From: an uncultured Acidobacteriaceae bacterium
Lineage (GTDB): Bacteria > Acidobacteriota > Terriglobia > Terriglobales > Acidobacteriaceae
NCBI GenBank assembly: GCA_903849645.1
Contig: CAINJJ010000030.1
Coordinates: 62,001 to 126,000, forward strand
Direction of reading: 5' to 3'
Length of the DNA stretch: 64,000 nucleotides
Both the position numbers and the translations under genes were made by a program. Positions 6,895-16,906 of the stretch are shown one piece after another (the first letter of the stretch is position 1; each line of letters opens with the position of its first letter). The notes beneath the pieces are model-generated. The model was not told where the DNA came from. It saw only the letters and a program-made list of their open reading frames with translations, and ran no database searches.

Positions 6895-7424
6895 GGGGCT
6901 GAGCAGGCTGCGGCAAGACTTGATGGGCAAGGCCCGAAGTGTGGGGGCACAACTTCAGTCGTGCCGCCCAAGCCAATCAAAGCAACAGGGCTTCACAGGC
7001 TGCGGAAAAACTTGATGGGCAAGGCTCGAAGTGTCAAGGCACAACTTCAGTCTCGCCGCCCAAGCCAGTCAAAGCAACAGGGCTTCACAGGCTACGGAAA
7101 AACTCGATGGGCAAGGCTCGAAGTGTCAAGGCACAACTTCAGTCTCGCCGCCCAAGCCAATCAAAGCAACCGGGCTTCACAGGCTGCGGAAAAACTCGAT
7201 GGGCAAGGCTCGAAGTGTCAAGGCACAACTTCAGTCTCGCCGCCCAAGCCAATCAAAGCAACAGGGCTTCACAGGCTACGGAAAAACTTGATGGGCAAGG
7301 CTCGAAGTGTCAAGGCACAACTTCAGTCTCGCCGCCCAAGCCAATCAAAGCAACAGGGCTTCACAGGCTGCGGAAAAACTCGATGGGCAGGATCGAAGTG
7401 TCAGGGCACGACTTCAGTCGTGCC
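6895..7424 (+). repeat. 92-bp tandem repeat array, about 5.7 units
   Basis: The marker TTGATGGGCAAGG or its variants recurs at 6920, 7012, 7104, 7196, 7288 and 7380, an exact 92-bp period. Each unit contains GGGCTTCACAGGCTGCGGAAAAA, a GATGGGCAAGG block, CGAAGTGTCAAGGCACAACTTCAGTC and CCAAGCCAATCAAAGCAAC. The last unit is diverged and carries a perfect palindrome (7405-7424). Units are more than 95% alike internally. The period is not a multiple of three, and all forward frames stay open, which is a composition artefact and not evidence of coding. There are no unique spacers, so it is not CRISPR. Confidence 0.93.
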
Positions 7425-7580
7425 GTAAGTGCCCTATAATCAACGGGGCTTTAGCCCCTGAGGGATGCCTTGCGGGAATTCCGACCAATAGAGTGCCTTT
7501 TTCCGCAGCCTGTTCAGCCCCTGGGGGCCAGTTTTTGAGGCTTCCATCCCAAATACCGGCCTTTTCTCGCAGCCTCTGAA
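7425..7580 (+). repeat. terminal copy of the dispersed repeat and inverted flank
   Basis: Continues the last array unit into the single-copy form of the family: AATCAACGGGGCTTTAGCCCC, with a GGGGC-TTTA-GCCCC hairpin at 7445-7458. It ends with CTTTTTCCGCAGCCTGTTCAG followed by CCCC (about 7499-7523), an inverted relative of the array's left end (GGGGCTGAGCAGGCTGCGG, about 6896). The array is therefore bracketed by inverted repeats. A weaker relative (TTTTCTCGCAGCCTCTGAAG) lies near 7562-7581. Confidence 0.65.
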
Positions 7581-8728: not shown

Positions 8729-9967
8729 ATGACACAAGAAAGAAAGCAATTGGACCGGCGCTGGCTTTGGCTGGGCGCGGTTCTCCTTCTCATAGCCGTG
8801 TTTTTCTCGGTGCGGACCCTGACACGGGAGCGTCTGCCAGTGCGCGCGGCGGAGGCATCGCACGCGCCGCTGGTGAGCACCATCAGCACCAACGGGCGAG
8901 TTGAGCCGCTGGATAACCACGAGGTGCACAGCCCGCTGTCGACGACGGTGAAGGCGGTGTATGTGGAGGCAGGCGACAAGGTGGCGGCAGGCAAGCTGCT
9001 GCTGACGCTGGACGACACGCAGGCGCGCGCGCGGGTGGCCTCAGCCGAGAGCGGCGTAAAGGCGGCGCAGGCGCAACTGGAAGCAGCCACGCACAACGGA
9101 ACCCAGCAGGAACGGCAGGCGGCGGCAGCCGACCTGGCGCGGGCGCGGCTGGAGCGCGACGAGGCAAAGCGCGGCCTGGATGCGCTGACACGGCTGAGTT
9201 CCACAGGCGCGGCGGCGCCCAGCGAAGTGACCTCGGCCCGGCAGCGTCTGGAGAACGCCGAGGCCAATCTGCGGGCCATCGAAGAGAGCTCGCAGAAGCG
9301 CTACTCGACGGCGGAGATTGACCGCGCAAGGGCGGCGCTGGCCGATGCGGAGGCGAACCTGGAAGCAGCGCGGCAGGTGCTGGCGCGAACGAGTGTTCAC
9401 GCTCCCGCGGCGGGAACGGTCTACAGCGTGAATGTGCAGCCGACCGAGTATGCCGAGGAAGGCAAGCTGCTGTTGCAGTTGGCGGACCTGAGCCATGAAC
9501 GCGTGCGGGCCTACTTTGACGAGCCGGAGCTGGGGCGGCTGGCGGTGGGACAGAAGATCCAGATCAAGTGGGACGCCCGGCCGGGCAAGGTGTGGAACGG
9601 GCACATCGACCGTACGCCGGTCACGGTCATCACCTTCGGGACGCGCAATGTGGGCGAGGTGCTGGTGGCGGTGGACGATATCGACAGCGAACTGTTGCCG
9701 GACACAAACGTGACGGTGACGGTGACTGTTTCCAGCGAGACGAACGCGCTCAGCGTTCCGCGCGAGGCGCTGCACTCGGAGAACGGGAAGTTTTACGTAT
9801 ACAAGGTGGCGGGCGACGAGTTGAAGCGGACGCCGGTGACGACCGGAACCATTAACCTGACCCAGGTTGCGATTATCTCCGGACTGCAGGATGGGGACAT
9901 GGTGGCCACGGGGACAACGAGCGGACAGCCCTTGCAGGAGGGCATACCGATCAAGGTTGCCCATTGA
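8729..9967 (+). CDS. HlyD-family periplasmic adaptor (efflux membrane fusion protein)
   Basis: A 412-residue adaptor. One membrane helix at about 11-28 is followed by a lipoyl half-motif (STTVKAVYVEAGDKVAAGKLLLTLDD), a long alpha-helical hairpin (about residues 90-215, rich in Ala/Glu/Arg heptads), the second lipoyl half (SVHAPAAGTVYSVNVQPTEY), a beta-barrel domain and a membrane-proximal domain. Such proteins join an inner-membrane ABC or RND pump to a TolC channel. It begins a three-gene operon (adaptor, TPR protein, TolC); its stop TGA overlaps the next gene's TTG start. No transporter subunit is encoded next to it, which is odd. Substrate unknown. Confidence 0.88.
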   Translation: MTQERKQLDRRWLWLGAVLLLIAVFFSVRTLTRERLPVRAAEASHAPLVSTISTNGRVEPLDNHEVHSPLSTTVKAVYVEAGDKVAAGKLLLTLDDTQARARVASAESGVKAAQAQLEAATHNGTQQERQAAAADLARARLERDEAKRGLDALTRLSSTGAAAPSEVTSARQRLENAEANLRAIEESSQKRYSTAEIDRARAALADAEANLEAARQVLARTSVHAPAAGTVYSVNVQPTEYAEEGKLLLQLADLSHERVRAYFDEPELGRLAVGQKIQIKWDARPGKVWNGHIDRTPVTVITFGTRNVGEVLVAVDDIDSELLPDTNVTVTVTVSSETNALSVPREALHSENGKFYVYKVAGDELKRTPVTTGTINLTQVAIISGLQDGDMVATGTTSGQPLQEGIPIKVAH

Positions 9968-10929
9968 GGGCGCTGGCGGGCTTCGTGCTGGCCGCGGCCT
10001 TGGCGGCCGGGGCGCAGGCTCCACGCGAGCCGTTGGCCCAGGCGAGGGCTGCGTTGCAGGCCGGCGAAGCCGACAAGGCGCTGGATCTGCTGAAGTCGCT
10101 GGGTTCGGCAGGAGCGGGACTGGCCGAGGCGCACAATCTGCGCTGCCGGGTGCTGCTGACCCTGGAACACTGGGACGGCGCGGCCGGCGAGTGCGAAGAG
10201 GCCGTGCGGCTGGACGGCCAAAACGCGGTCAATCACCTTTGGCTGGGCAGGGCGCTGGGCGAGAGGGCGGAGAGGGCTTCGTTCCTGAGCGCTTATTCTC
10301 TGGCCAAGCAGGTGCGCAGCGAGTTTGAAGAAGCGGTCCGGCTGAATCCGAAGGATGCCGAGGCGCTGGCCGACCTGGGCGAGTTCTATGAGTCGGCGCC
10401 GGGCGTAGTGGGCGGCGGCATCGGCAAGGCAGAAGCCGTGGCCGGCCAACTGGACAAGGTTGACCCGGCGCGCGCCCACGAGTTGAGGGGCCGCATTGCC
10501 GAGGAACGCAAGGACCTGGATGCCGCGGAGCGGGAGTACAAGCAGGCGATCTCTGCCGGAGCGCACCCGGCCTTCCAATGGGCGACGATGGCCAGCTTTT
10601 TCAAGCGCCGCCAGCGGTGGCAGGAGATGGAAGCGGCGGTGAGCAGTTGTGAGTCTGCCGCGACACGCGACAAGCACGCGACGGTGGCGATGTACCTGGG
10701 CGCGTCTGTTTTGCGCGCGACCAACAGACAGCCGGCCCAGGCAGCACGGATGCTGGAGGCTTACCTGGCAAGCCCGGAGAAGACCGAAGAGGCGCCGGCG
10801 TTTGTGGCGCACACCTGGCTGGCCCGGCTGAAGGAACAACTTGGCGACCCGGCGGCTGCCCGGCGGGAGAGGGCTGCCGCTCTGGCCCTGGCCCATGATT
10901 TCAAGCCAGCTCAGGATTTGGCCCATTGA
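9964..10929 (+). CDS. secreted TPR-repeat protein
   Basis: A 321-residue protein starting with TTG inside a TTGA overlap with the adaptor gene. The N-terminus MRALAGFVLAAALAAGAQ is a signal peptide, so the protein is probably periplasmic. The rest is helical repeat: ARAALQAGEADKALDLL, AHNLRCRVLLTLEHWDGAAGE and DAEALADLGEFYESAPG are TPR-like 34-residue units; further weak units run to the C-terminus. TPR domains serve as protein-docking scaffolds. Its position between an adaptor and a TolC protein, with 4-nt overlaps on both sides, suggests it belongs to the same export machine, perhaps as an assembly or specificity factor. That role is inferred only from coupling. Confidence 0.75.
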   Translation: MRALAGFVLAAALAAGAQAPREPLAQARAALQAGEADKALDLLKSLGSAGAGLAEAHNLRCRVLLTLEHWDGAAGECEEAVRLDGQNAVNHLWLGRALGERAERASFLSAYSLAKQVRSEFEEAVRLNPKDAEALADLGEFYESAPGVVGGGIGKAEAVAGQLDKVDPARAHELRGRIAEERKDLDAAEREYKQAISAGAHPAFQWATMASFFKRRQRWQEMEAAVSSCESAATRDKHATVAMYLGASVLRATNRQPAQAARMLEAYLASPEKTEEAPAFVAHTWLARLKEQLGDPAAARRERAAALALAHDFKPAQDLAH

Positions 10930-12266
10930 TCGATAGAGCGAAAACCGGGAGCAGGGGCGCACGGATGTGCACGGCAGCCTGGATGACGGCCGCGCTGACG
11001 CTGGCGGCTGGTTCGGCAGCGGCCCAGGTTTCACTGGGAACCGTAGTGGACCTGGCGCAGCGCAACAGCTACACGGTGAAGCTGGCCGAGGCAGACGCGC
11101 AGAAGGCATCCGCTACGCTGGCGCAGGCGCAGGTGGTGTATGTGCCAAACCTGACCATTGGCTCGACGGTGGGATTCTCGGTTGGATTTCCGGCCGGGCA
11201 ACCCTCGATCGCCAACGCGTCGATGCAGTCGCTGGTGTTCAACTTTTCGCAGCAGCAGTACATCCGCGCCGCGCACGCCGCATTGGATGCAGCTTCGCTG
11301 AGCCTGAAAGAGGCGCGGGAGAAGGTGGCGCTGGACGCATCGACGGCTTACCTCGAGCTGGATGTGGTGACCCGCGAGCTGGACGCGGCGCGCCGGCAGC
11401 AGGAGTTTGCCGACCGGCTGGTAATGATCGAACAGCAGCGGACCGAGGCGGGGGTAGACCCGCTCAACGACTGGCTGCAGGCGCGGCTGACGGCAGCGGA
11501 ACTGAAGCTCAAGCGGCTGCATCTGGAGACCCGCGCCGCCACCGTGGCTGGGCAGCTCAGCCTGCTGACCGGGCTGCCAACGGGGTCGATCACGCCGGAC
11601 CATGGCAGCATTCCGGAGATACCGGCGATCCGTGCGGATGAGGGGCCGCGGACCAATCCCGGCGTGGATTCGGCGCGGGCGCTGGCGCGTTCCCGGCAGG
11701 CGCAGGCAAAAGGAGACGGACTTGCGGGACGGCGGCCTCAGCTCTCCTTTGGGGCGCAATACAATCTGGACTCGGACAAGCTGAATAACTACGCGACTTA
11801 TTACAAGAACTTCACGCCGAATAACTTCAGTCTCGGGGTCTCGATCCAGATACCGATCTTTGACCTGGGGCTGCATGCCAGGGCCCGTGAGTCAGCGGCC
11901 GACGCGCTGCGCGCCAGAGTTGAGGCGGAACAGGCGCAACACCAGAACGACGAGCAGATTGCGGAACTGATGGGGACGCTGCGGGAACTCGACGAGGTGG
12001 CGGAGATTGCGGCCCTGAAGCAGCAGATTGCGGCGCAGCAGTTGTCTGCCGTGCTGGCGCAACTGGAGCTGGGCAATGGCGCGGCGAGCGGGCCGGGAGC
12101 CACACCGCAACTCTCGCCCAAGGCGGAGCAACTGGCGCGCATCGACGAGCAGCAGAAGCTCGCGGATGCGCTGGATGCCGGGTTTGACCTGGCCAAGGCG
12201 CGGTTGAGCCTGCTGCGCGCCTTCGGGCACCTCGAGGACTGGCTGCACGAGGTCCATTCAAAGTAG
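10926..12266 (+). CDS. TolC-family outer-membrane efflux channel
   Basis: A 446-residue outer-membrane factor. The TTG at 10926 overlaps the TPR gene's stop (TTGA); an ATG 13 codons later (MCTAAWMTAAL) is an alternative start directly before the signal peptide ending AAGSAAAQ. The mature protein shows two structural repeats typical of the family, each with long coiled-coil helices (EADAQKASATLAQAQ; AALDAASLSLKEAREKV; AESAADALRARVEAEQAQH), and QLSFGAQYNLDS plus FSLGVSIQIPIFDLG, the usual second-repeat beta segment. It would form the trimeric exit duct with the adaptor encoded two genes upstream. Confidence 0.9.
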   Translation: MIDRAKTGSRGARMCTAAWMTAALTLAAGSAAAQVSLGTVVDLAQRNSYTVKLAEADAQKASATLAQAQVVYVPNLTIGSTVGFSVGFPAGQPSIANASMQSLVFNFSQQQYIRAAHAALDAASLSLKEAREKVALDASTAYLELDVVTRELDAARRQQEFADRLVMIEQQRTEAGVDPLNDWLQARLTAAELKLKRLHLETRAATVAGQLSLLTGLPTGSITPDHGSIPEIPAIRADEGPRTNPGVDSARALARSRQAQAKGDGLAGRRPQLSFGAQYNLDSDKLNNYATYYKNFTPNNFSLGVSIQIPIFDLGLHARARESAADALRARVEAEQAQHQNDEQIAELMGTLRELDEVAEIAALKQQIAAQQLSAVLAQLELGNGAASGPGATPQLSPKAEQLARIDEQQKLADALDAGFDLAKARLSLLRAFGHLEDWLHEVHSK

Positions 12267-12538: not shown

Positions 12539-14356
12539 ATGTGCGGCATAGCGGGATTTGTTTCGCGGAACGCCGGGCCCAACAACTCGAAGCTTGAAGC
12601 AGTCCGCCGCATGACTGACCGGATGAGCCCGAGGGGACCGGACGCCGTGGGCGTCTGGAGCGGGGATGGGGTTGTTCTTGGCCATCGCCGCCTGGCCATT
12701 CTGGATCTAGATCCCCGCTCGAACCAGCCGATGATCTCCAGCGACGGGAATTACAGCATTTCCTTCAATGGGGAGATCTATAACTTCCGCGCCCTGCGGG
12801 AGGAGTTGGAAACTCAAGGGGTAACATTCCGCACCACATCGGACACAGAGGTCCTGCTGGCGCTGTATGCGCGGGACGGAGAAGGTATGCTGCCCAGGCT
12901 TCGCGGCATGTTTGCCCTCGCGATCTGGGATTTGCGTTCCCGCGAACTGTTCCTGGCGCGCGACCCATACGGGATCAAGCCTCTTTACTATTCAGCGGTG
13001 GAAGGCGGGCTGATTTTCGCTTCCCAGGTGAAGGCGCTGGTAGCTTCGGGGCTGATATCGACCGAGCCCGAGAGCGCGGGAGTGGCTGGATTTTACCTGT
13101 GGGGCAGCGTTCCTGAGCCTTGGACCCTCTATCGCGGGGTGTATTCGGTACCGGCGGGTTCATGGCTTCGCGTGCAGGGTGGCGTGGCTTCGGCGCCCGT
13201 CCGCTGGAATGACATTCGCAAGAACTGGCAGCAGCCGCCCCATCGCCAATCGAATGAAGAGATGTACGCCCATGTGCGCAAGGCGGTAACTGAGTCTGTG
13301 CGCGCTCACCTGGTTTCCGACGTGCCGGTCAGCGTGTTTTTGTCCGGGGGCATCGATTCGGGAGCGATTGCGGGGCTTGCCGCGCAGTTGGGAGCAAAGG
13401 TCGAGGGCATCACGGTCGCTTTTGACGAGTTCGCCTCTCACCCTCAGGATGAGGCGCCGCTGGCAGCGGTCCTGGCCGCGCATTACGGGCTGCCGCACCA
13501 TGTACGCCGGGTGGAGCGGAGCGAGTTTGAGCAGGACGTGCCCGCCATTCTCAACGCCATGGACCAACCCTCGATTGATGGCGTGAACACCTGGTTCGCC
13601 AGCAAGGCGGCGGCGGAACGGGGCTACAAGGTGGTCCTCTCCGGCGTGGGGGGAGATGAGCTCCTTTACGGCTACGCGCTGATGACGCAGATTCCCCAGC
13701 ACGCGCTTCTGGGCGGGGCTATCGCGGCAATTCCGGGGGCGCGTGCGCTGCTCAAGGCGCCATTCACGGCTCTGGCCAAGGGCCGCAGGCACCCCAAGCT
13801 CAAAGGCGTGCCGGAGTTCATGGGATCGCTGGAGGGAGCGTATTTTCTGAAGCGCTGTCTTTTCCTTCCCCAGGAGTTGCCTTCGCTCATGGGCGCGGAG
13901 GCGGCGCGCGAGGGGATCGAGAAGCTGGGTGGTTCGCCTCCGGGAATGAGCAAAGCCAATGCCGTGAACGGCGGCGGCGCGGTATGCCTGCTGGATTCGA
14001 CGCTTTACTTGAGAAACCAATTGCTCCGCGACAGCGACTGGGCGAGCATGGAGCATTCCCTGGAGCTGCGTACCCCGCTGGTGGACGCGAAGCTGCTGGA
14101 GGAACTCCAGTTCATTCACACCAGCTTCACGGGCGGAGAGGGCAAGAAGATGCTCGCCAATGCGCCGCTGCGTCCTTTGCCGGAGAGCATCATCCACCGC
14201 GAGAAGTCGGGGTTCGAGATCCCTATCACGGAGTGGCTGGCCGCTTCAACCAATCTCCATGACTGGGCGGGATCTCCGCTGCTGGAGCCTTCAGGAACGC
14301 CGTGGACGCGCCGGTGGGCGAAGACGGTGATGGACACCTTCCTGCCGCAAAAATAG
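12539..14356 (+). CDS. asnB: glutamine-hydrolysing asparagine synthetase
   Basis: A 605-residue two-domain enzyme. MCGIAGFV places the nucleophilic Cys directly after the initiator Met, fixing the start at 12539. The glutaminase domain shows RGPDAVGVW, GHRRLAILDLDPRSNQP and SFNGEIYNFRALREEL; the ATP-pyrophosphatase domain shows the PP-loop VSVFLSGGIDSGAIAGLAA and SGVGGDELLYGY. It makes Asn from Asp, Gln and ATP, or amidates another substrate. The family also includes dedicated amidotransferases in envelope or natural-product pathways, and the next gene, 138 bp downstream, is hopanoid-related, so a non-housekeeping role cannot be excluded. A candidate operator lies just upstream. Confidence 0.88.
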   Translation: MCGIAGFVSRNAGPNNSKLEAVRRMTDRMSPRGPDAVGVWSGDGVVLGHRRLAILDLDPRSNQPMISSDGNYSISFNGEIYNFRALREELETQGVTFRTTSDTEVLLALYARDGEGMLPRLRGMFALAIWDLRSRELFLARDPYGIKPLYYSAVEGGLIFASQVKALVASGLISTEPESAGVAGFYLWGSVPEPWTLYRGVYSVPAGSWLRVQGGVASAPVRWNDIRKNWQQPPHRQSNEEMYAHVRKAVTESVRAHLVSDVPVSVFLSGGIDSGAIAGLAAQLGAKVEGITVAFDEFASHPQDEAPLAAVLAAHYGLPHHVRRVERSEFEQDVPAILNAMDQPSIDGVNTWFASKAAAERGYKVVLSGVGGDELLYGYALMTQIPQHALLGGAIAAIPGARALLKAPFTALAKGRRHPKLKGVPEFMGSLEGAYFLKRCLFLPQELPSLMGAEAAREGIEKLGGSPPGMSKANAVNGGGAVCLLDSTLYLRNQLLRDSDWASMEHSLELRTPLVDAKLLEELQFIHTSFTGGEGKKMLANAPLRPLPESIIHREKSGFEIPITEWLAASTNLHDWAGSPLLEPSGTPWTRRWAKTVMDTFLPQK

Positions 14357-14494
14357 TCGTCATCCTGGCTCGCATTCACCTGCAAAAGGCGCACTCGCGC
14401 GCGTGCAAGCTCATGCCAATGAACTACTTCCGACCTGATGTGACAGGTTGGACTGCAGCGCGAACGCCGCGATGTTAGAATTGGAGGGATGCCT

Positions 14495-15970
14495 ATGCCT
14501 TTGAAGACCCTGCTCCTGAATCCGCCTTCGTTTGAAAACTTCGACGGAGGCGCGAGTTCGCGCTGGCCCGCAACCCGTGAGATTGAATCCTATTGGTACC
14601 CGGTGTGGCTTGCCTATCCGGCCGGCCTGCTGGAGGGTTCGCGCCTTTTGGATGCCCCCCCGCATCACGTTTCGGCGGAAGAGACCATCAAGATCTGCAA
14701 GGACTACGAGTTCCTGGTGCTGTTCACCTCGACGGTGGGCTGGGAAGGCGACCAGCGGCTGGCGGAGGCGATCAAGGAGGCCAATCCTTCGATCCGCATC
14801 GCCTTTGTTGGTCCGCCGGTGACCACGGACCCGGACCGCGCGCTGAACGAGTGTTCCTCGCTGGACTTCATCTGCCGCCGCGAGTTTGACTACTCGGTTG
14901 TGGAGTTTGCCCAGGGCAAGCCGCTGAGCGAGATTCTGGGAATCAGCTACAAGCTGGACGGCAAGATTGTGCACAACGCGGACCGCCCGCAGGTGGAAGA
15001 CCTGGACGCGATGCCGTGGGCGACCAAGATCTACAAGCGGGACATGGACGTGACCCGCTACAACGTGCCCTTCCTGTTGCATCCGTATATCGCGCTTTAT
15101 TCAACCCGCGGCTGTCCGGCGCAGTGCACGTTTTGCCTGTGGCCCCAGACACTGAGCGGGCACGCCTGGCGGAAGCGCTCGACCGACGACGTGGCGGCGG
15201 AGCTGGCCTGGGCCAAGGCGAACTTCCCCGAGGTCAAGGAGTTTTTCTTTGACGACGACACCTTCAACATCCAGAAGGCGCGCACCATCGAGCTGTGCGC
15301 CAAACTGAAGCCGCTGGGGCTCACCTGGAGCTGCACTTCGCGCGTGACCACGGACCGCGAGACGCTGCAGGCGATGAAGGAAGCCGGCTGCCGGCTGCTG
15401 ATTGTGGGCTTTGAATCAGGCGACCCGCAGATCTTGAAGAACATCAAGAAGGGCGCAACCGTGGAGCGCGCGCGGGCATTTGCCAAGGACTGCAACGACC
15501 TGGGGCTGACCATCCACGGGGACTTCATCCTCGGGCTGCCGGGCGAGACCAAGGAGTCGATTCGCAACACCATCAACTTCGCCAAGGGGCTGGATTGCGA
15601 GACCATTCAGGTTTCCATCGCGCACGCCTATCCGGGAACAGAATTTTATGACTACGCCAAGGCCAACGGCTTCATTGTGAACACCGAAGCCATGATGGAC
15701 TCGGGCGGGCACCAGATGGCGCACATCGAGTATCCGGGGCTGCCGACAGACTATGTGATGGAGATGGTGCACCGGTTCTATGACGAGTACTACTTCCGTC
15801 CCAAGGCGGCCTTCCGCGTGGTGTGGAAGGCGATTGTGAACCGCGACGTGCCCAGGCTTTATGTGGAGGCCAAGGCCTTCCTGAAGCTGCGTTCGCAGCG
15901 CAACAAAATGGTGAAAGACAAGCGCAGCCGGCAGGCAGACCCGCCCGCGCCGGTCAGCGCCGGGGTCTAA
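14495..15970 (+). CDS. hpnJ: B12-binding-type radical SAM protein, HpnJ-like (hopanoid cyclitol ether formation)
   Basis: About 491 residues. The second of two close ATGs is chosen because GGAGGG (14483-14488) sits 6 bp before it and touches the first. The N-terminus (MPLKTLLLNPPSF) and first 150 residues look like a cobalamin-binding-like Rossmann domain. The radical SAM core carries RGCPAQCTFCLWPQTL, giving the CxxxCxxC cluster site at Cys207, Cys211 and Cys214, then FFFDDDTFNI, LLIVGFESGD and GDFILGLPGET. The CTFCLWPQT run is characteristic of HpnJ, which makes the bacteriohopanetetrol cyclitol ether side chain. Two small DMT-like membrane genes follow. No squalene-hopene cyclase or hpnG/H/I/K gene is in the window, so the pathway must be completed elsewhere. 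Confidence 0.8.
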   Translation: MPLKTLLLNPPSFENFDGGASSRWPATREIESYWYPVWLAYPAGLLEGSRLLDAPPHHVSAEETIKICKDYEFLVLFTSTVGWEGDQRLAEAIKEANPSIRIAFVGPPVTTDPDRALNECSSLDFICRREFDYSVVEFAQGKPLSEILGISYKLDGKIVHNADRPQVEDLDAMPWATKIYKRDMDVTRYNVPFLLHPYIALYSTRGCPAQCTFCLWPQTLSGHAWRKRSTDDVAAELAWAKANFPEVKEFFFDDDTFNIQKARTIELCAKLKPLGLTWSCTSRVTTDRETLQAMKEAGCRLLIVGFESGDPQILKNIKKGATVERARAFAKDCNDLGLTIHGDFILGLPGETKESIRNTINFAKGLDCETIQVSIAHAYPGTEFYDYAKANGFIVNTEAMMDSGGHQMAHIEYPGLPTDYVMEMVHRFYDEYYFRPKAAFRVVWKAIVNRDVPRLYVEAKAFLKLRSQRNKMVKDKRSRQADPPAPVSAGV

Positions 15971-16058
15971 GCGCGGCCCGAACACCCACTCGCGAGGGCG
16001 GCGCAGCAGCGTCGCCCTCGATGATTTTCAGCCCGCAACAAGGAACGCGAAGACCCCG

Positions 16059-16502
16059 ATGGCGCACGCAAAACTCCTGCCGCGGCAGTACATGATCCTG
16101 GGATTGGTGGCCGTTTCGGCGCCGCTGGGGGATGCCTGCCTTTCGCGCGGTATGACCTATCTGCCGGCCATCTCGCTGGCGCATCCGGCAGAGTTGATCG
16201 GGGCGGTGTTCACGCCCTGGATTGGCGCGGGCATCGCGCTGCTGATTGGCTTCTTCGCCAGCTACCTGACTGCGCTCTCGTGGGCCGACCTGACGTTTGT
16301 GCTGCCGGCCACTGCGTTTGGCAACGTGATTGTGGCGCTGCTGTCGCGCTTCTGGCTGCACGACCAGATCTCATTGGAGCGCTGGGCGGGGATTGCCCTG
16401 ATTACCCTGGGCGTGGGATTTGTGGCGCAGGGGCCGTCACTCACCGAGAGGCCCGCGCTGACCGCCGACGCTGCCGCCGCCGAGCAGGGGGACGCGCAAT
16501 GA
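16059..16502 (+). CDS. half-size DMT-superfamily membrane protein, subunit 1
   Basis: A 147-residue protein with four predicted membrane helices: LGLVAVSAPLGDACLSRG, LIGAVFTPWIGAGIALLIG, LTALSWADLTFVLPATAFGN and WAGIALITLGVGFVAQG. The ALSWADLTFVLPATA segment resembles the EamA/SMR-type helix 3. At half the size of a normal EamA carrier it probably works as a dimer. It overlaps the next gene by ATGA; that gene also encodes a four-helix protein, so a heterodimer like paired SMR or ArnE/ArnF proteins is likely. Position downstream of hpnJ suggests a lipid or hopanoid-linked substrate; this is inference. Confidence 0.72.
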   Translation: MAHAKLLPRQYMILGLVAVSAPLGDACLSRGMTYLPAISLAHPAELIGAVFTPWIGAGIALLIGFFASYLTALSWADLTFVLPATAFGNVIVALLSRFWLHDQISLERWAGIALITLGVGFVAQGPSLTERPALTADAAAAEQGDAQ

Positions 16503-16906
16503 CAGTTCCCTTCCCTGCGACTCAAACCGGACCATGGACAGCCGCGGCCATGATTGCCGCCGTGGTGCTGACCTCGACCACCGGTGAGGTGCTGACGGCC
16601 GCGGCCATGAAATCCATCGGGGACCTCGACGAGATTCGTGCCGTGTCCGGAATGAAGGGCGCCATTCGCGCCGTGGTCACCTGCCCGCAGTTCTTTGCAG
16701 GGGTGGGTTTTCTGGCGCTGGCCTTCTTTTCGCTGCTCTTCGCGCTCAATCATTTGAACCTGAGCCTGGTGGCGCCGGCCTCGGCGTCCCTTACTTTGGT
16801 AACCAATGCGATCGCCGGAAAGATCTTCCTCAAGGAGAATGTGGACCGTCGGCGCTGGACGGCCGCAGTGCTGGTCTGCATCGGGGTCTACCTGCTGGCC
16901 CATTGA
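16499..16906 (+). CDS. half-size DMT-superfamily membrane protein, subunit 2
   Basis: A 135-residue four-helix protein. The ATG at 16499 overlaps the TGA of the previous gene by 4 nt, which fixes the start. Helices include AAMIAAVVLTSTTGEVLTAA, FFAGVGFLALAFFSLLFAL, NLSLVAPASASLTLVTNAIA and WTAAVLVCIGVYLLAH; the third is the EamA/SMR pattern with small residues followed by a charged loop (LKENVDRRRW) typical before the last helix. It is similar in plan to the neighbouring subunit but not closely alike in sequence. Together they resemble paired flippase-like proteins. Confidence 0.72.
   Translation: MTVPFPATQTGPWTAAAMIAAVVLTSTTGEVLTAAAMKSIGDLDEIRAVSGMKGAIRAVVTCPQFFAGVGFLALAFFSLLFALNHLNLSLVAPASASLTLVTNAIAGKIFLKENVDRRRWTAAVLVCIGVYLLAH

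Follow-up and report, generated by a model that had tools for sequence, protein, structure and literature searches.

A locus in the 64,000-nucleotide stretch of DNA analyzed here (the window, G000:C30:62001-126000), which comes from an uncultured Acidobacteriaceae bacterium, raises the question of how hopanoids that are made on the cytoplasmic side get across the inner membrane. In the window, the gene for the radical SAM enzyme HpnJ is followed by two small genes, DMT1 and DMT2, each encoding a half-size membrane protein of the DMT/EamA type. Radical SAM enzymes such as HpnJ act in the cytosol, and the lipid product must therefore switch leaflets before it reaches the outer membrane. The DMT pair is a small candidate for this step and, judged by sequence comparison, appears to be the best one, the switch itself being a step that we infer. 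It is probable that DMT1 and DMT2 form an antiparallel heterodimer that serves as a dedicated flippase for hopanoids with amino head groups, doing the job presumed for HpnL. No earlier report of a hopanoid flippase, or of a link between DMT, EamA or SMR proteins and hopanoids, was found in the titles and abstract openings searched, a body of text that leaves most of the subscription literature uncovered.

Linkage of the DMT Pair with hpnJ

The grouping of hpnJ, DMT1 and DMT2 in the window exceeds chance, because DMT1 is present in 72 and DMT2 in 71 of 80 named loci around related hpnJ genes. They were taken as the top 80 from a set of at least 553 confirmed relatives, which biases them towards Acidobacteriota; the closest named relatives of the window HpnJ are Acidobacteriaceae at about 91% identity. 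Half of the eight named loci without DMT1 (L050, L079, L101 and L103) stop shortly past hpnJ. The distance from the end of hpnJ to the start of DMT1 is at most 310 bases in 65 of 71 pairs measured, and a four-base overlap of DMT1 and DMT2 is found in 57 of 72 pairs, the window being included in both counts and the start codons of the relatives' DMT1 and DMT2 having been chosen by script. Two contigs of metagenome-assembled genomes (MAGs) labeled Verrucomicrobia and Acidimicrobiia (L045 and L108) carry an hpnJ that groups within Acidobacteriota in the HpnJ tree, and are probably misbinned.

Co-occurrence was counted in 297 genomes drawn evenly across the phylum. HpnJ scores above its cut-off in 45 of these and the tandem pair is present in 47, with 42 genomes carrying both; the pair is thus found in 42/45 genomes with HpnJ versus 5/252 of the others (Fisher p = 8e-42, relatedness ignored). 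At the level of families (80), seven have both, three have HpnJ only and two have the pair only (Fisher p 1.3e-6). The set of 47 is a by-eye reading that calls for two adjoining matches, with the best match to profile A2 at 109 bits or more; it omits genomes with a single match, such as G203 (109 bits) and G037, G066, G196, G235 and G274 (92-99), and weaker extra tandem pairs in the already counted G171, G217, G233, G249 and G273. Of the profiles, A2 rests on 18 chosen sequences and A3 on 17, A4 on 65 and A5 on 64. HpnJ without the pair is limited to G029, G192 and G278, and the pair without HpnJ above cut-off to G074, G169, G201, G215 and G103. At G103:C34:196718-198254, hpnJ was matched as two pieces, and the adjoining DMT pair was matched as well. 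The initial annotation had held that a pair occurring mostly without hpnJ would speak against its reading; HpnJ is present in 42 of the 47 pair genomes, and a split hpnJ in a 43rd (G103). Its proposal of a dedicated flippase for a hopanoid head group or precursor thus gains strong comparative support, except for the link that it drew to a neighboring AsnB-type gene, discussed below.

The pair also stays close to hopanoid genes. Its distance from hpnJ is at most 2 kb in 37 of the 42 genomes, and at most 0.5 kb in 28 of those 37, and in the other five it adjoins hpnE (G130, G289 and G187) or hpnK (G267 and G291), so that a hopanoid gene is nearby in 42/42. This linkage outlasts rearrangement, being kept across several gene orders and seven families. 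Past the pair, the next recognized hopanoid gene is hpnI in 10/42 genomes (G063, G095, G096, G123, G165, G179, G226, G259, G281 and G291), with a peptidase gene sitting between the two in G063. Deeper branches carry the cassettes hpnJ-DMT1-DMT2-hpnI (for example L113, G095 and G226) and hpnJ-hpnK-DMT1-DMT2-hpnI (L104, G096, G123, G165 and G259).

Exchange with HpnL

In two of the three genomes that have HpnJ and no pair, an HpnL-like protein adjoins hpnJ, in the order hpnJ-hpnK-hpnI-HpnL in G278 (152 bits, the top score in the phylum) and hpnI-hpnJ-hpnK-HpnL in G029 (112 bits); in the third, G192, an HpnL-like protein is present at a contig edge. HpnL is likewise near hpnJ in 7/7 proteobacterial records, all without a DMT pair. 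These records (L114-L117 and L143-L145; six Burkholderiaceae and one Methylobacterium) were picked from a search that matched 126 plasmid records, among its 17 top rows (about 46% identity). The local HpnL profile was made from seven proteins of L114-L119, leaving only L143-L145 among the proteobacterial records unseen by it, and in the other four (L114-L117) HpnL scores above the curated TIGR03476 cut-off. With this local profile, HpnL was found beside hpnJ in 0/80 named loci of the pair-bearing lineage. Across the 297 genomes, the HpnL search gave no match above cut-off, and only sites adjoining hpnJ are informative. HpnL-like matches at E <= 0.001 occur in 8/45 HpnJ genomes, five of which have the pair. 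The match is on a different contig from hpnJ in three of these five (G257, G095 and G291); in G063, no HpnL was found in the stretch around hpnJ (L133), and the HpnL-like sites of G063 and G259 lie outside the matches listed.

The same division is seen in the enzymes themselves. In a tree of 88 HpnJ sequences, a long branch with 100% support separates an HpnL-type side (four proteobacterial sequences, G029, G278 and, at a contig edge, G192) from all pair-linked HpnJs. At the position where one HpnJ lineage has the MprF-flippase-like HpnL, the acidobacterial HpnJ lineage has the DMT pair. Because the pair exchanges with HpnL, both are predicted to do the same job. Neither DMT1 nor DMT2 of the window matches the HpnL profile (TIGR03476) or LPG_synthase_TM.

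Fold, Charge Bias and Conserved Residues

The predicted models of DMT1 (pLDDT 82.3) and DMT2 (pLDDT 90.5) are four-helix bundles, with an added helix (43-61) in DMT2 between transmembrane helices (TM) 1 and 2. The best PDB matches for both are EmrE and Gdx (Gdx-Clo). These two head the list at Z 10.8-11.6, a root-mean-square deviation (rmsd) of 2.6-3.2 and 98-103 residues aligned, and DMT2 against EmrE gives Z 11.6, rmsd 2.6 and 103 aligned. Residue 30 in TM1 of DMT2 is D or E in 69/72 sequences, and residue 25 of DMT1 is D in 56 of 73 sequences and N in 15; judging by motif spacing, this TM1 acid is probably the equivalent of EmrE E14. Near invariant are also D77, E102 and R108 of DMT1 and E113 and R119 of DMT2. 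The K+R bias of DMT2 has a mean of -8.15 and is negative in 72/72 sequences, and that of DMT1 has a mean of +1.45, with 47 positive, 17 zero and 9 negative of 73, loop borders having been placed by hand in both cases. Opposite Arg/Lys bias is the direction given for antiparallel SMR heterodimers in a review of this family (PMC9574504). The opposite charge biases, the conserved TM1 acid and the EmrE/Gdx-like models together fit an antiparallel heterodimer, the charge biases in particular supporting the likely heterodimeric pair of the initial annotation.

The pair had also been said to resemble ArnE/ArnF. This holds for its architecture and fails for membership: curated ArnE/ArnF models are absent from the window's NCBIfam matches at E <= 0.001, in a library that presumably contains them, and DMT2 has its TM1 acid in 69/72 sequences where lipid SMRs often have Asn, and strict ArnE/ArnF membership was rejected on these two grounds. 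According to the same review, Asn often replaces the central Glu in ArnE/ArnF-type lipid SMRs, and exporters of the Qac and Gdx kinds bind their cations at the TM1 acid (PMC9574504). Two further explanations bear on these residues. The pair might act strictly in the ArnE/ArnF manner, flipping a polyprenyl-phosphate-linked amino sugar for use as a donor by a periplasmic glycosyltransferase, with its linkage to hpnJ reflecting a shared envelope program. The tandem arrangement of two small four-helix genes, the Asn at DMT1 residue 25 in 15/73 sequences, as in lipid SMRs, and the retention of the pair in four genomes without hopanoid genes are consistent with this; it is nonetheless unlikely, as besides the two grounds just given no polyprenyl-phosphate sugar synthase or ArnT-type neighbor was seen to recur, the recurrent neighbors identified being hpnJ, hpnI, hpnK and hpnE. 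It is very unlikely that the pair is instead a general small-molecule exporter (for a drug, a polyamine or a guanidinium-like SMR substrate) that is linked to hpnJ through an ancient accident of operon structure. EmrE and Gdx are indeed the nearest solved folds, and the acid in TM1 binds cations in Qac/Gdx exporters, but the linkage is kept across several gene orders and seven families, and the five pairs located away from hpnJ still adjoin another hopanoid gene.

The Hopanoid Pathway and the Proposed Flippase

Judging from its genes, the host should make hopanoids: the window genome has a squalene-hopene cyclase (736 bits), an adjoining HpnH (532 bits) and an HpnI above cut-off (327 bits, with a second copy at 300). 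In the mechanism proposed, HpnI, HpnK and HpnJ would act at the cytoplasmic leaflet, and DMT1 and DMT2 would pair up antiparallel in the style of paired SMRs. The pair would take up an amino-sugar or aminocyclitol hopanoid, such as bacteriohopanetetrol (BHT) cyclitol ether or a closely related lipid, at the cytoplasmic leaflet and flip it to the periplasmic one, with or without proton coupling, and the hopanoid would continue from there to the outer membrane. The TM1 acid in the cavity would suit an amine-bearing substrate, as in glucosaminyl- and cyclitol-hopanoids.

Several observations weigh against this proposal. HpnK above cut-off is absent from the window genome and from all 33 f1/f2 genomes, and the lipid of the window lineage may therefore have a variant head group and not be BHT cyclitol ether. 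Four hpnJ loci that could be assessed (L052, L089, L092 and L096) were found to have neither the DMT pair nor HpnL. Four genomes from two families (G074, G169, G201 and G215) have the pair without squalene-hopene cyclase, HpnI or HpnJ above cut-off; their pairs form one clade (support 100/96), and Pfam scans of the genes around them gave no shared partner or theme. The exchange between HpnL and the DMT pair is clean, yet it may reflect a single historical event, because the split coincides with one branch of the HpnJ tree, and HpnL's own function is described as not established in PMC12583986. The Foldseek E-values are all >0.001, and Z 11.6 is below the tool's safe level for helical bundles. 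The charge bias of DMT1, finally, is weak, given its 17 zero and 9 negative values.

The absence of HpnK raises the alternative that the head group made by the DMT-type HpnJ lineage is a different one, with the pair carrying that lipid or a small precursor. In its favor, DMT-type HpnJs make up one side of the long branch with 100% support, HpnK above cut-off is found in just 8/42 genomes with hpnJ and the pair, and acidobacteria of subdivisions SD1/SD3 are reported to have hpnI and hpnJ and no hpnK in PMC5462960, from which, together with record names, the subdivision labels used here (SD1 etc.) were deduced. Another deacetylase could stand in for HpnK, however, and three genomes (G096, G123 and G165) with the order hpnJ-hpnK-DMT1-DMT2-hpnI and no HpnL match carry the FMO protein (about 288 bits), from which we infer that they are Chloracidobacterium. 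BHT cyclitol ether has been reported in C. thermophilum B, of this genus (PMC5462960). These genomes, presumed Chloracidobacterium, would tie the pair, along with an hpnK, to a lineage with known chemistry, and a different head group is on balance rather unlikely.

The best YdjC protein of the window genome (C12, 181 bits) was considered as HpnK and rejected, since it adjoins BshA and better fits thiol biosynthesis; at this site (L141, G000:C12, 7486-9577), the HpnK-like YdjC beside BshA may act as the deacetylase in a pathway similar to that of bacillithiol. In the hpn clusters of a Methylobacterium (L116:7464-8648, minus strand) and a cyanobacterial MAG (L089:15650-17944) are proteins that, judging by a motif, look like amidinotransferases, with no Pfam match or a weak one to arginine deiminase; they are possible makers of guanidino head groups.

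The Locus, Its Neighbors and the Onward Route

All four genes named in the initial annotation, the AsnB-type gene included, were recovered on the plus strand (Table 1). HpnJ of the window exceeds the equivalog cut-off of TIGR03471 (748.4 bits versus 577.6) and has a B12-binding domain (PF02310, 41.8 bits versus 32.1) and a Radical_SAM domain (PF04055), both above the Pfam cut-off; its radical SAM cysteines C209, C213 and C216 are invariant in an alignment of 11 sequences. PF00892 (EamA) gives 28.6 bits in DMT1, against a gathering cut-off of 28.2, and 27.3 bits, slightly under it, in DMT2; DMT2 of L113 scores 32.7 bits. A tract of near-identical repeat units was seen in open reading frame translations at 6939-7440 of the window.

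Table 1. Features of the locus, in window coordinates.
Feature	Position	Strand	Description
hpnJ	14489..15970	+	493 aa; cobalamin-dependent radical SAM, hopanoid cyclitol-ether enzyme
DMT1	16059..16502	+	147 aa; four-helix half-size DMT/EamA protein, probably N-in
DMT2	16499..16906	+	135 aa; half-size DMT/EamA protein, probably N-out
DMT1 stop/DMT2 start overlap	16499..16502	+	four bases, ATGA
AsnB-type amidotransferase	12539..14356	+	605 aa; neighbor, judged outside the hopanoid unit
HlyD adaptor, TPR protein, TolC-type outer-membrane protein	8729..12266	+	PF16576, TPR, PF02321; role unproven

The AsnB-type protein (TIGR01536, 380.8 bits, cut-off 267.1; N-terminal MCGIAG and an SGGIDS motif) had been proposed as a partner of HpnJ and the pair in modifying the hopanoid head group. 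Its gene has the same orientation as hpnJ and stops about 130 bases before it, and in G225 a second DMT pair adjoins another AsnB-type gene, of 35% identity, and an HpnI-like gene is found a few kb away. However, an AsnB-type gene is beside hpnJ in 0/80 loci, and in the same genus a relative with 69% identity is located on contig C56 and hpnJ on C87; AsnB was rejected as a member of the hopanoid unit on these grounds, and a head-group role for it is extremely improbable. AsnB-type matches occur in 22/33 f1/f2 genomes and, among the places listed, only that of the window adjoins hpnJ. The G225 site (L131, G225:C2, 9464-16848) has, beside the second DMT pair and the AsnB-type gene, a PMT-like glycosyltransferase, an epimerase and the HpnI-like gene (299 bits), and is perhaps another glycolipid cassette.

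Further 5' of hpnJ, among the 56 loci whose upstream sequence spans 5 kb or more, HlyD is found in 34, a TPR protein in 33 and TolC in 37, suggesting a possible downstream export module. This group often has no obvious pump gene, and some deeper loci add a MacB-like permease (L090); in the congener G007, HlyD/TPR/TolC were not found directly upstream of hpnJ. At L113:9101-9982 and in the F14 family (nine loci), the protein encoded directly 5' of hpnJ resembles LolA weakly (26.8 bits against a cut-off of 30) and is possibly a periplasmic lipid carrier. HpnN, credited with hopanoid delivery to the outer membrane in PMC12583986, was found in 0/51 acidobacterial genomes at E <= 1e-40, with a positive control of 994 bits in a Methylobacterium record. 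A broader and more tentative idea is that bacterial makers of amino-headgroup hopanoids need a dedicated inner-membrane flippase, a slot possibly filled twice by unrelated proteins (HpnL and the SMR-like DMT heterodimer), with Acidobacteriota using another onward route, for which HlyD-TPR-TolC and the LolA-like protein are candidates. If true, this two-fold filling would give HpnL its first function.

Comparison with Known Systems

The comparisons made here provide good support for a link between the paired SMR/DMT type of putative flippase and hopanoids. If the pair is a flippase, triterpenoid lipids would be added to the substrates of SMR-like flippases, and the pair would help explain how Acidobacteriota, abundant hopanoid makers of soil, build an outer membrane without HpnN.

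Among hopanoid proteins, HpnL (TIGR03476, LPG_synthase_TM, with a flippase-like domain) is similar to the pair in occupying the same slot of hpnI/hpnJ/hpnK cassettes, in being a multi-helix membrane protein and in its presumed transport role, but it belongs to a separate protein family, is about 350 aa long, goes with the other HpnJ lineage and was not seen beside hpnJ together with the pair. The RND transporter HpnN shares the proposed role in hopanoid transport; unlike the pair, it carries hopanoids to the outer membrane, and it was not found in the 51 acidobacterial genomes. ArnE/ArnF, a lipid flippase subtype of SMR, are encoded by two small adjacent four-helix genes in a biosynthetic operon, as is the pair, and the flipping of amino-sugar lipids to the periplasmic leaflet is a likeness that is proposed. 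The pair differs from them in its hopanoid rather than arn context, in the TM1 acid and extra helix (43-61) of DMT2 and in the lack of a model match. Paired SMRs such as EbrAB and MdtIJ share with DMT1 and DMT2 the tandem genes, the opposite charge bias, the EmrE-like fold predicted for the pair and the conserved TM1 acid, whereas the pair stands apart in its weak sequence similarity (EbrA, 23.3 bits, cut-off 160) and in its association with hopanoid genes rather than with the export of drugs or polyamines.

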